Source: Glycomyces amatae (GTDB lineage: Bacteria > Actinomycetota > Actinomycetes > Mycobacteriales > Micromonosporaceae). Taken from it: DNA of 64,000 nucleotides. Below the pieces are notes generated by a model. The model was not told the DNA's origin. It did no database searches and saw nothing but the letters and a program-made list of their open reading frames with translations. Shown piece by piece: positions 48,127 to 51,012 of the stretch (positions are counted from its first letter, which is position 1; the number at the start of each line of letters is the position of its first letter). Location: contig NZ_JAJLQZ010000016.1 of NCBI RefSeq assembly GCF_020991375.1, positions 1 to 64,000 on the forward strand, read 5' to 3'. The position numbers were made by a program, and so were the translations under genes.

Positions 48127-48384
48127 CTAGCCCTGCTTGGGCTCCTTGCCGTACTTCTTGTAGAACTTGGCGACGCGGCCCTCGTCGTCCAGGACGCGGC
48201 TCTTGCCGGTCCAGAACGGGTGCGAGGCCGAGGAGATCTGGACGTCGATCACCGGGTAGGTCCGGCCGTCCTCCCACTCCACGGTCTCGGCCGAGGTGGC
48301 CGTGGACCGGGTGAGGAAGGCGAAGTCGGCGCCGCGGTCGCGGAAGACCACCGGGTGATAGTCCGGGTGTATGCCTTGCTTCAT
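48127..48384 (-). CDS. rpmE2: 50S ribosomal protein L31, type B (zinc-independent)
   Basis: 85-aa bL31[17 protein letters not shown] and [11 protein letters not shown] are diagnostic. There is no cysteine at all, so it is the C-minus form that replaces zinc-binding L31 when zinc is scarce. ATG at 48384 follows AGGAACCAGGA and overlaps the end of the upstream COG0523 gene by 4 bp (ATGA). Same strand as that gene, read from the Zur-box promoter. Confidence 0.95.
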
Positions 48385-49655
48385 TCCTGGTTCCTCTCGT
48401 TGCTCTCGAAACAACCCTCGAAGGGGTCGCGGTATTCCCGCCACGCGTCCCGGCCCTCGGCGAGTTCGGCGTCGGTGAGCAGGCAGGCGTCGAGGACGGC
48501 GGCGAGCTCGTCGGCCGCGAAGTGGAGGCCGACGAACACCAGCTGGGTCTCGCGGTCGCCGAACTCGGGGTCCCAGTGCAGGTCGGCGTTGACGCGCCGC
48601 TCGGGGCTCGCCTCCTCCCACTCCTCGTCGGGGACGGCGGCGAGCCAGCGGCCCATGTCGCCCATCGAGACGCCGCCGCCGCTGGACTCCCAGGCCACGA
48701 TGTGTTCGGGCTGGGAGGCGAGCCACAGGTGGCCGCGGCCGCGCAGGGTGCGGCCCGAGACGGCGGGGAGGGCCCGGTGGAAGCGCTCGGGATGGAAGGG
48801 CCGGCGGGCGCGGTAGAGGGCGGCGACGACGCCGCAGTCGGGTTCGGGCTCGTGGCAGCCGACGGCGTAGCCCTCCAGGCCGCGCCCGTACGGCTCGGGC
48901 CCGTCGGGGTCGAAGCCGCCGCTGCGGCGCAGCTTCGCGGAGAGCCACCGCGCCCGGTCCTCCGGGGTCCGCGCTTCGGCGTGGACGGCGAGGTGGCGGG
49001 CCCAGGGGTTGAGGCGCTGGAGCAGCACGGCGAGGCGCGCGTGCTCGTACTCGGGTTCGGCGCGCGGGGCCCAGAGGAGGACGGTGTCGGCGTACTCGAT
49101 CTGGCGGGCGGCGACGTCGGCGACCGAGCGGGTGTCGTCGTCGGCGGCCTGGAGGCGGCGGTCGGCGAGGTCCTGGTCGGAGTCGAGTGTCGCGAGGAGG
49201 CTCGCGGGGTCGCAGACGGCCACGACGGAGTCGATCCGGATCGCGTCGGTGACGGGCGCGCCGTCGACGTGGTGCCAGGAGCAGGCCGAGGCGACGGTCT
49301 CGGGCTCCATCGAGGGCGGCAGGACCAGGGCGATGTCGCTCTCGGGGCGGGCGCGGGCGAGGCGCACGAGGGCCGGGAGGAGGTCTTCGCGGACGGTGCA
49401 GGCGATGCAGCCGTGCTCGAGGGTCAGCGAGACGTCCTCGACGAGGCCGCCGCCGTCGTGGACGGTGCGGCGGACGGTGCCGTCGACCAGGAGGTCGGTG
49501 AGGTCGTGGGCGACGACGAGGAGGCCCGGGTCGGCGAGGGTGAGCTGCTCGGCGGCCTCGCGGACGGCCGCGGGCGCGAAGCCGGTCAGGATCGTCACCG
49601 CGGGCCTGAGTTCGGGCCGGGACCGGGTCGCGTCGGGTTTGGCGAGTCGGGACAT
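48381..49655 (-). CDS. COG0523-family protein with degenerate P-loop (Mrf-like)
   Basis: 424-aa member of the CobW/YciC/YjiA superfamily. The N-terminal strand is normal (TILTGF, 21-26), but where GTPases have GxxGKT it reads APAAVREA, so the P-loop lysine is missing. The metal motif CxCC is also changed to CIAC (C83, C86). The C-terminal CobW_C domain is present ([14 protein letters not shown]). Mycobacterial Mrf, encoded with C-minus ribosomal proteins and acting with hibernation factor MPY, is the closest analogue by context. The start at 49655 is close to the Zur box and drives rpmE2. Function as a metallochaperone or hibernation factor is inference. Confidence 0.9.
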
Positions 49656-49671
49656 GAGACCTCCGATCTAA

Positions 49672-49693
49672 TCGAAAACGATTGTCATTATAC
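49672..49693. promoter_or_regulatory. Zur box in the divergent ribosomal promoter
   Basis: GAAAACGATTGTCATTATAC at 49674-49693 (with flanking TC at 49672-49673) fits the actinobacterial Zur consensus (GAAAA-like arms around ATnnTCATT) and lies between the divergent COG0523 gene (start 49655) and rpmB (start 49719). Zinc-loaded Zur would silence both operons. Confidence 0.85.
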
Positions 49694-49718
49694 TTGTGAT
49701 CGTGAGAGGAGGACGACC

Positions 49719-49955
49719 GTGTCCAGAACATGCGAGGTGACCGGCGCCGGGCCGGGTTTCGGCAACAACGTCCCGTGGTCGAAGAAGAAGACCCGGCGGC
49801 GGTGGAACGTGAACCTGCAGAGCAAGCGGTACTACCTGCCCAGCGAGGGCCGGCACGTGCGGCTGCGGGTGTCGACCAAGGGGATCAAGATCATCGACCG
49901 CGACGGCGTCGAGGCCGTCGTGCAGCGGATGCGAGCAGAGGGAAGGCGGATCTGA
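49719..49955 (+). CDS. rpmB: 50S ribosomal protein L28, zinc-independent paralogue
   Basis: 78-aa bL28. [24 protein letters not shown] is the family core. Zinc-binding L28 begins with CxxC; here it is CEVT, with one Cys lost, so this is the C-minus form. GTG at 49719 follows GAGGACGACC, 26 bp after the Zur box. Next gene begins 2 bp after its stop. Confidence 0.95.
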
Positions 49956-49956
49956 G

Positions 49957-50127
49957 ATGGCGGGCAAGAGCACCGACGTCCGGCCGGTGGTGAAGCTGCG
50001 GTCGACCGCGGGCACCGGCTACACGTACGTGACCAGGAAGAATCGGCGCAACGACCCGGACCGGATGGTCCTGCGCAAGTACGACCCGATCGTGCGCCGG
50101 CATGTCGACTTCAGGGAGGAGCGCTAG
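49957..50127 (+). CDS. rpmG: 50S ribosomal protein L33, zinc-independent paralogue
   Basis: 56-aa bL33 without any Cys; [22 protein letters not shown] is normal and the C-terminal part lacks the usual CxxC pair. ATG at 49957 almost touches the rpmB stop. Its TAG overlaps the GTG of the first mini-ORF (TAGTG). Its last residues, FREER, reappear at the ends of the mini-ORFs, showing that the repeats came from this 3' end. Confidence 0.95.
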
Positions 50128-50168
50128 TGACGATCCTGAAGCTTGAGCGCAGTAGGGAGGAGCGCTAG
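50127..50168 (+). CDS. Mini-ORF 1 of the rpmG-rpsN array (13 aa)
   Basis: Reads [13 protein letters not shown] from the GTG overlapping the rpmG stop. GGGAGGAG precedes it by 5 nt. Its TAG overlaps the next GTG. Its last four residues, REER, match the end of L33, so it looks like a duplicated gene junction. No function is known beyond possibly keeping ribosomes moving toward rpsN. Confidence 0.5.
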   Translation: MTILKLERSREER

Positions 50169-50209
50169 TGACGATCCTGAAGCTTGAGCGCAGTAGGGAG
50201 GAGCGCTAG
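50168..50209 (+). CDS. Mini-ORF 2 of the rpmG-rpsN array (13 aa)
   Basis: Identical to mini-ORF 1 in DNA and peptide ([13 protein letters not shown]), with the same ribosome site and TAGTG overlaps at both ends. Confidence 0.5.
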   Translation: MTILKLERSREER

Positions 50210-50322
50210 TGACGATCCTGAAGCAGGGGGCACAGCAGGGAGGAACGCCAGTGACGACCCCGAAGCAAGAAGTACAGGGAGGCGGCGCCCTGAACCGCGA
50301 GCACAGCCGAGAGGACCGGTAG
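50209..50322 (+). CDS. Mini-ORF 3, fused units 3 and 4 (37 aa)
   Basis: Begins VTILKQGAQQGGTPVTTPKQ and ends HSREDR. The unit-3 stop is lost because TAG became CAG, so units 3 and 4 read through. The in-frame GTG at 50251 is the relic fourth start. Stop TAG at 50320 is immediately followed by the rpsN ATG. Confidence 0.5.
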   Translation: MTILKQGAQQGGTPVTTPKQEVQGGGALNREHSREDR

Positions 50323-50628
50323 ATGGCCAAGAAGAGCGCGATCGCCAAGCAGGCCCGCCGCGAGGTCCTCGTGGACCGGCACCGTGAGCGGCGCGCCGAG
50401 CTCAAGCGCCTCGCCGCGCACCCGGACACCGATCCGCAGGCCCGGGCGGAGGCGGTGCGGCGGCTCCAGAAGCTGCCGCGCGACTCCTCCCCCGTGCGGC
50501 TGCGCAATCGGGACGCCGTGGACGGCCGCCCGCGCGGCTTCAACCGGAAGTTCGGACTGTCGCGTAACCGACTCAGGGAGATGGCGCACCGGGGCGAATT
50601 GCCCGGAGTGCGTAAAGCGTCCTGGTAG
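50323..50628 (+). CDS. rpsN: 30S ribosomal protein S14, zinc-independent (long) form
   Basis: 101-aa uS14. [17 protein letters not shown] and [22 protein letters not shown] and [16 protein letters not shown] are diagnostic. The zinc-ribbon cysteines of the short form are absent, so it is the C-minus type. ATG at 50323 with GAGAGGA upstream, directly after mini-ORF 3. Last gene of the Zur-boxed operon. An S18 paralogue (rpsR), common in this operon elsewhere, is missing. Confidence 0.96.
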
Positions 50629-50669
50629 GAGTATCGCCCGAACCGGGCAAAGACCCCGCCTGACCTGCG

Positions 50670-50718
50670 CCCCCTGCGATCCTTTGGCATGAAACCGTCA
50701 TGCGGGCGTCGCAGGGGG
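50670..50718 (+). terminator. Nested hairpin after rpsN
   Basis: Outer 10-bp arms CCCCCTGCGA / TCGCAGGGGG enclose an inner GCATGA-AACCG-TCATGC hairpin. It could end the ribosomal operon or act as a leader structure of the following 64-aa ORF. Confidence 0.6.
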
Positions 50719-50817
50719 ACGCTAACCTGAGGCTTGCGAGTGCGCTGTGAGACTGCTCTCAGGCCCGGAACCATGTGAGGGGCTCCTGCGTTTCACTCTG
50801 TGGACGAAGAAGGAGTT

Positions 50818-51012
50818 ATGACAGTGATGGTCCAGCAATTGGAGACCGCCCCGTCCGAGGCGGGCGAACCCGCCGAGGTCGAGGCCGACGTGCCCGCCAG
50901 CCCCGCGTCCCTGTGGACGTCGGAGAGCCGGGCCCACTACTCCATCACGCACGTCGAGCAGGGCGACGCCCGCGCCTGGATCGACTGCGACTGCGTCATC
51001 CACGGCGACTAG
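50818..51012 (+). CDS. 64-aa Cys-tailed small protein
   Basis: Starts at ATG 50818 with GAAGGAG 7 nt upstream, a strong ribosome site. The first ~35 residues are acidic and leader-like (LETAPSEAGEPAEVEADVPA). The C-terminus reads ITHVEQGDARAWIDCDCVIHGD, with a Cys-Asp-Cys pair. No family recognised. It has leader-plus-core layout like a ribosomally made peptide, but no modification enzyme is adjacent; a small metal-binding or regulatory protein is equally possible. It has its own spacing from the zinc operon (190 bp, with hairpin). Confidence 0.65.
   Translation: MTVMVQQLETAPSEAGEPAEVEADVPASPASLWTSESRAHYSITHVEQGDARAWIDCDCVIHGD

Follow-up and report, generated by a model that had tools for sequence, protein, structure and literature searches.

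The stretch of DNA analysed here, 64,000 nt long and referred to as the window, carries a short ribosomal protein operon, rpmB-rpmG-rpsN, in which an array of tandem units separates the second gene from the third. The genes and their surroundings are:

48381-49655, minus strand: CobW-family GTPase, upstream of rpmB and divergent from it
49673..49687, plus strand: weak Zur-box-like palindrome CGAAAACGATTGTCA in the divergent promoter region
49719..49955, plus strand: rpmB, ribosomal protein L28 (PF00830, E=4.6e-26; TIGR00009)
49957..50127, plus strand: rpmG, ribosomal protein L33, without cysteine in its translation (PF00471, E=1.5e-15)
50323..50628, plus strand: rpsN, ribosomal protein S14, 101 aa, without cysteine (PF00253, E=1.2e-25; NF006477)

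The product of rpsN scores 134.3 bits against NF006477 (cut-off 77) and, judging from the gene content, the absent cysteines and established knowledge, the three genes probably encode a set of zinc-starvation ribosomal proteins. The palindrome has a single mismatch to what we take to be the Zur motif, for which 0.5 matches with up to two mismatches are expected in the window by chance, and it is not significant on its own. On the 3' side of rpsN lies a 70-aa ORF (MVQQLETA...WIDCDCVIHGD, 50800-51012) without Pfam or NCBIfam match, relatives of which were seen by a motif scan at 11 of 19 Glycomyces rpsN loci; its MVQQLETA is shared with a mini-cistron peptide of Nocardia shimofusensis. At the other end of the window, positions 1-96 hold a nearly exact 8-bp tandem array of TGGGCCGC (12 copies, 98% matches).

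The space between rpmG and rpsN is organized as follows (SD, Shine-Dalgarno motif):

50113..50127, plus strand: last 15 nt of rpmG, AGGGAGGAGCGCTAG, with SD, REER codons and TAG (read from the sequence)
50127-50167, plus strand: unit 1, 41 nt, identical to unit 2
50168-50208, plus strand: unit 2, 41 nt, identical to unit 1
50209-50250, plus strand: unit 3, 42 nt
50251-50322, plus strand: unit 4, 72 nt
50127..50168, plus strand: mini-cistron 1, MTILKLERSREER and stop, 13 codons, GTG start, 1-nt overlap with the rpmG stop
50168..50209, plus strand: mini-cistron 2, MTILKLERSREER and stop, 13 codons, 1-nt overlap (TAGTG) with mini-cistron 1
50209..50322, plus strand: mini-cistron 3, 37 codons, units 3 and 4 in one frame; its TAG abuts the rpsN ATG (50323)
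50154..50161, plus strand: SD AGGGAGGA of mini-cistron 2; other copies at 50113, 50195 and 50237
50309..50315, plus strand: SD-like GAGAGGA ahead of rpsN (read from the sequence)

TRF places the repeat at 50113-50266 (period 41, 3.7 copies, 91% matches) with a score of 236, the highest of the 50 TRF rows for the window. When 50127-50322 is cut at each GTG, units of 41, 41, 42 and 72 nt result, so that the four 41/42-bp units of the original prediction are found for units 1-3 and not for unit 4. The identity of units 1 and 2 and the short GTG frames linked by TAGTG overlaps, both claimed at the outset, are borne out, the ORFs 50127-50168 and 50168-50209 sharing one base; likewise, the peptide ends do repeat the end of L33, as the rpmG tail AGGGAGGAGCGCTAG recurs exactly at the close of units 1 and 2. 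It had further been proposed that unit 3 lost its stop through a change from TAG to CAG and thereby fused with unit 4. The fusion is real and its proposed cause is not: the 42-nt length of unit 3 sets any TAG out of frame (ACG CCA GTG), which rules out the stop loss as its cause, and in another genome, G010, three units are fused into a 41-codon frame although the first unit (42 nt) retains its TAG, from which it follows as well that the TAG-to-CAG change is not responsible. Readthrough of the rpmG stop is unlikely to contribute, since in the window it would meet TGA at the very next codon of the frame. As a control, ORFs of 8-40 codons with a required SD motif were counted by start over the 64-kb window; among the 94 such ORFs (66 on the plus and 28 on the minus strand), a chain of at least two coupled ones is found at 50127-50322 only.

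Our sample of the genus comprised 22 Glycomyces genomes, in 19 of which the operon (strong S14 match with rpmG upstream) was identified; G003, G017 and G021 gave only the weak paralogue match, with G017 being a fragmented assembly. Seven operons have no unit, with rpmG-rpsN spacers of -1 to +2 nt, nine have one unit (40-45 nt), and two, three and four units occur once each, in G011 (81 nt), G010 (124 nt) and the window (195 nt). Unit number, which had been expected to vary among relatives, thus runs from 0 to 4 and differs between species, and the relatives do not share one identical array. An rpoB tree was built from 3441 nucleotide columns of 21 Glycomyces and four outgroups (G017 being omitted for its partial rpoB), and six of its internal branches have support of only 34-59. 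Neighbours on it differ in unit number without apparent pattern; the tree requires 10 copy-number changes, and the 7 presence/absence changes compare with a mean of 5.9 for shuffled labels, so that unit presence carries no phylogenetic signal. The RpoB sequences themselves read FMDQVN in all 21 Glycomyces (L133-L153) and FMDQ[NT]N in the four outgroups, at a position that presumably belongs to the rifampicin-binding region.

Such lability would suit a neutral minisatellite, that is, slippage products of a short spacer that relay nothing while rpsN uses its own SD, a reading to which we return below. Variation of unit number between species, together with the SD, start and overlapping stop carried by each full unit, would also be compatible with a translational rheostat in which the S14:L33 ratio falls (or rises) with every added unit and copy number is selected, for example under zinc starvation. 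However, neighbours on the tree differ with no evident pattern, and the fused frames of G010 and the window decouple the number of cistrons from that of units, so that cistron number does not track unit number; we consider the rheostat highly unlikely.

What does persist is the continuity of reading frames. A relay chain was defined such that each ORF starts within 4 nt of the preceding stop and the last one ends within 4 nt of rpsN, and an unbroken chain of this kind leads from rpmG to rpsN in 11 of the 12 Glycomyces spacers of at least 15 nt, the 124- and 195-nt arrays included. The exception is G011, in which the second unit is without its stop and the last ORF extends 19 nt into rpsN. The spacing from rpmG to the first unit is -1 nt in 12 of 12 spacers, and that from the last unit to rpsN is -1 to +4 nt in 11 of 12. 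When letters were shuffled and the frame randomised, chains arose by chance with frequencies of 0.27-0.34 (single-unit spacers), 0.18 (G010) and 0.09 (array of the window); when letters were shuffled and length was kept, these values were 0.72-1.00, 0.40 and 0.06, respectively. Since fixed-length shuffles preserve the single-unit chains, the latter testify to retained length alone; for the long arrays, the evidence for a kept relay exceeds retained length. As the genomes are related and the trials thus not independent, no joint probability is given for the chains, and kinship may be a partial cause of their persistence.

The nine single-unit ORFs align without gaps at 50-88% pairwise identity, with an invariant GTG, an in-frame stop at nt 40-42 in 9 of 9 and no change in the length from GTG to stop. 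We read this alignment as favouring one origin followed by repeated loss, with repeated gain as the alternative; if one unit were ancestral, seven losses would be required on the rpoB tree. A function of the encoded peptide was considered and rejected: the 37-codon ORF has no Pfam or NCBIfam match (E<=0.001), and third positions show no excess of change (-0.194, permutation p 0.955; codons 3-10 of the nine single units), positions 1-2 varying more. The mini-cistron peptide thus appears unconserved and without visible selection, and it is the GTG, the SD-bearing tail and the length that emerge as the constant features. A scattered distribution and peptides that are not conserved agree equally well with a spacer that is tolerated and with a rheostat.

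Relays built in the same way also occur outside the genus. A survey of the rpmG/rpsN junction, comprising 100 loci among the matches listed, yielded 96 rows, with four loci remaining without a row; rpsN was not found in four rows, two were mis-parsed, and four loci are Glycomyces records. The gap between the two genes is -1 to +4 nt in 84 of the 96 rows (among the matches listed). Long spacers from outside Glycomyces were chosen by length among the matches listed, and hence non-randomly; those bearing whole genes (L125; L204 of G263) were excluded from the spacer count. In Nocardia shimofusensis, the junction carries a relay of two 41-nt, 13-codon units (MVQQLETAFREER and MVQQSETAFREEH, each followed by a stop), and a search of its own genome gave no strong second copy of the unit (next E 0.007). 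In genus g29 (family f15), G048 and G201 each have a 25-codon ORF with coupling at either end, G067 carries two fused units at this junction, and G259 has none. The random-frame probability of a chain is 0.21-0.33 for the Nocardia shimofusensis and g29 relays. Five long spacers, one from N. caishijiensis (75 nt) and four from g67 genomes (68, 97, 136 and 204 nt), are without a relay, and coupling is therefore dispensable in some lineages. At a further g29 locus (L184 of G058), two relay units follow rpmG, the first without overlap with the rpmG stop (TGACGAGTG), and are themselves followed by only a short 3' remnant of rpsN.

The neutral minisatellite can now be weighed. Besides the labile copy number (7 presence changes versus 5.9), it would account for the unconserved peptide, for the five spacers without relay and for the survival of single-unit chains under fixed-length shuffling (0.72-1.00). 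It is less easily reconciled with chains in 11 of 12 Glycomyces spacers, including both long arrays, with relays of the same build at rpmG/rpsN in other genera, and with the constant GTG-to-stop length of nine diverged single-unit ORFs, and we regard it as doubtful, if with an appreciable chance of being right.

Instead, we propose, with a probability of about 0.58, that the array consists of relay mini-cistrons which would keep the translation of S14 coupled to that of L33 across an insert. Ribosomes would stop at the rpmG TAG and restart at the overlapping GTG, aided by the SD within the last 15 nt; mini-cistron 1 would be read for 13 codons to its TAG, with a restart at the next overlapping GTG, and the same would be repeated for mini-cistron 2; finally, the fused 37-codon frame would be translated up to its TAG immediately before the rpsN start. 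The peptides would be by-products. Relaying of ribosomes, which the original prediction had envisaged, indeed appears to be the most natural reading of the anatomy, given the chain in 11 of 12 Glycomyces spacers. Every start is preceded by an SD, however, so that ribosomes may also initiate de novo at rpsN. According to the accessible text of PMC10666635, coupling in E. coli and Haloferax requires overlaps or very short distances and is nearly abolished at a distance of ∼20 nt, with gene-specific exceptions, and for two E. coli pairs coupling needs no more of the upstream gene than its last 15 nt; the tail repeated in the array has the same length of 15 nt.

The Glycomyces ancestor probably had one unit, and recombination between the repeated tails may have deleted it (0 units) or multiplied it (2, 3 or 4 units). 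A unit length of 41 nt (3n+2) would then keep the cistrons separate and overlapping, one of 42 nt (3n) would fuse them, and the relay would be kept either way. Two observations fit deletion by recombination between repeated tails: (i) an L33 ending in EDR is found in 5 of 7 genomes without a unit versus 1 of 12 with units (Fisher test without correction for kinship, p=0.0095), and (ii) the junction of G015 carries the tail GGGAGGACCGGTAATGG, identical to that of the unit in G008, where L33 has the tail GGGAGGAACGCTAG, both genomes belonging to one five-member clade (support 97 on the rpoB tree). The idea that a coupling junction was duplicated is in line with the repeated tail and the differing copy numbers. 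A fresh rpmG/rpsN duplication as sole origin, in contrast, is not supported, because a single unit occurs widely across Glycomyces and the clear repeat of rpmG is limited to the unit tail of ∼15 nt. Derivation of the unit head from the 3' end of rpmG is unsupported (p<0.05 in 2 of 12 genomes), and the middle of rpmG outscored the 3' end in 9 of 12.

In g29 and g69, operon junctions carry dispersed elements of ∼70-85 nt with the core CGACCGGGTGCGGGTGTCCCGCA or one near to it (L240, L242, L244, L246, L247, L248, L249, L250, L253, L293, L295, L298), which contain a short ORF coupled at both ends and often have the tail of the preceding gene repeated at their own end; at zwf/opcA in G048, the element is present three times in tandem. 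The g29 element has further sites in 5 of 5 g29 genomes searched and, in a further search, matched 4 of 16 genomes, with eight matches in G255 (g69); 11 g13 genomes gave one weak match, without relay. Fifteen g29 loci beyond rpmG/rpsN were fetched, two of which overlapped others and were dropped, and in 9 of the remaining 13 two long ORFs are separated by a short, coupled one (assigned by script, downstream frames partly verified), as they are in 3 of 10 additional loci, which all belong to G255. At L240 the frame of the downstream ORF probably differs from that of the real gene, while at two junctions which, from the starts of the proteins, we take to be nuoE/nuoF and zwf/opcA, the frames seem correct and the ORF ends in a repeat of the upstream protein's tail. 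These dispersed elements look like counterparts, outside mycobacteria, of mycobacterial interspersed repetitive units (MIRUs), for which Supply et al. in 1997 are said to be the source.

The available part of PMC12548453 describes MIRUs as short, mobile repeats that insert at gene junctions with a spacing of -4 nt and contain an ORF coupled to the gene that follows. In senX3-regX3, as far as the available text of PMC4213456 goes, three 77-bp MIRUs, or two of 77 bp and one of 53 bp, are present depending on the strain, and these MIRUs are confined to M. leprae and the M. tuberculosis complex; copy-number alleles of the 77-bp unit are shown in the accessible portion of PMC2413405. Compared by build and description, not by sequence, the Glycomyces array would work like a MIRU: its unit is a small ORF coupled to the flanking genes (by its anatomy and the chain in 11 of 12 spacers), and its units are in tandem and vary in number, between species (0-4 in 19 operons) where MIRUs vary between strains. 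The Glycomyces unit differs, however, in its spacing (-1 to +4 nt, with -19 nt in G011, versus -4 nt) and in being found, within the sensitivity of our search, at one locus only, whereas MIRUs are mobile. In 22 Glycomyces genomes, all 10 matches with E<0.01 lie at rpmG/rpsN, as do all pattern matches with 0-1 mismatch; since the search ranked the known unit of G012 low (E 0.019) and missed that of G001, diverged copies elsewhere could escape it. As the unit is not seen to be dispersed in Glycomyces, we do not class the array as a MIRU.

One may nevertheless imagine that the unit arrived as a mobile, MIRU-like element, duplicated its target on insertion and later became bound to one locus, and this would be compatible with a relay. 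The dispersed elements of g29 and g69 lend such an origin some credit, with their ORF coupled at both ends, repeated upstream tail and tandem copies, and the confinement of all 10 Glycomyces matches to one junction speaks against it; on balance, we think it rather unlikely. Similarly, a MIRU-bearing intergenic region, that of senX3-regX3, is reported to drive expression of regX3 (accessible text of PMC4213456), so that the spacer might contain an internal promoter or else a regulatory RNA structure. Yet the RNA has no folding advantage over shuffled sequences (z -0.67; equalled by 42 of 200 shuffles), Rfam gave no match near its gathering score in the spacer, and a scan restricted to the sigma-70 type detected no sigma-70-like promoter in 49650-50860, which leaves this reading extremely improbable.

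A relay of mini-cistrons would also be akin to two other known arrangements. Bicistronic designs and uORFs, in the accessible parts of PMC12548453 and PMC10367133, likewise have a short leader cistron with close stop and start that delivers ribosomes onward; they are engineered or single, while the Glycomyces units occur naturally, in tandem, and separate two genes of one operon. Termination-reinitiation pairs (PMC10666635, PMC6728339) share with the array the 1-nt overlaps TAGTG, TGATG or TAATG and an SD that falls in the final 15 nt of the first ORF, and throughout the array stop and start overlap or lie very close, with an SD. The Glycomyces arrays differ from such pairs by up to three putative serial reinitiations via ORFs of 13 to 41 codons. 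A literature search in a limited collection found no paper joining Glycomyces, ribosomal proteins and zinc, nor, among the matches listed, a title concerned with the array itself.

In its boldest form, the proposal would hold that the relay array is bound to one locus and driven by recombination, that its number of units can evolve and thereby sets S14 relative to L33 in zinc-starvation ribosomes, and that relays of the same build arose repeatedly at this junction in actinobacteria, all of which we consider quite unlikely. Independently thereof, Glycomyces offers a natural series of 0, 1, 2, 3 and 4 units between the same two ribosomal genes, with both separate and fused frames, by which the loss per reinitiation step becomes measurable. 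The series suggests a rule according to which a tightly coupled junction tolerates inserts that bear an open frame with overlapping ends. Finally, it suggests that MIRU-type anatomy extends beyond mycobacteria, in dispersed form in g29 and g69 and in locus-bound form in Glycomyces and Nocardia shimofusensis.
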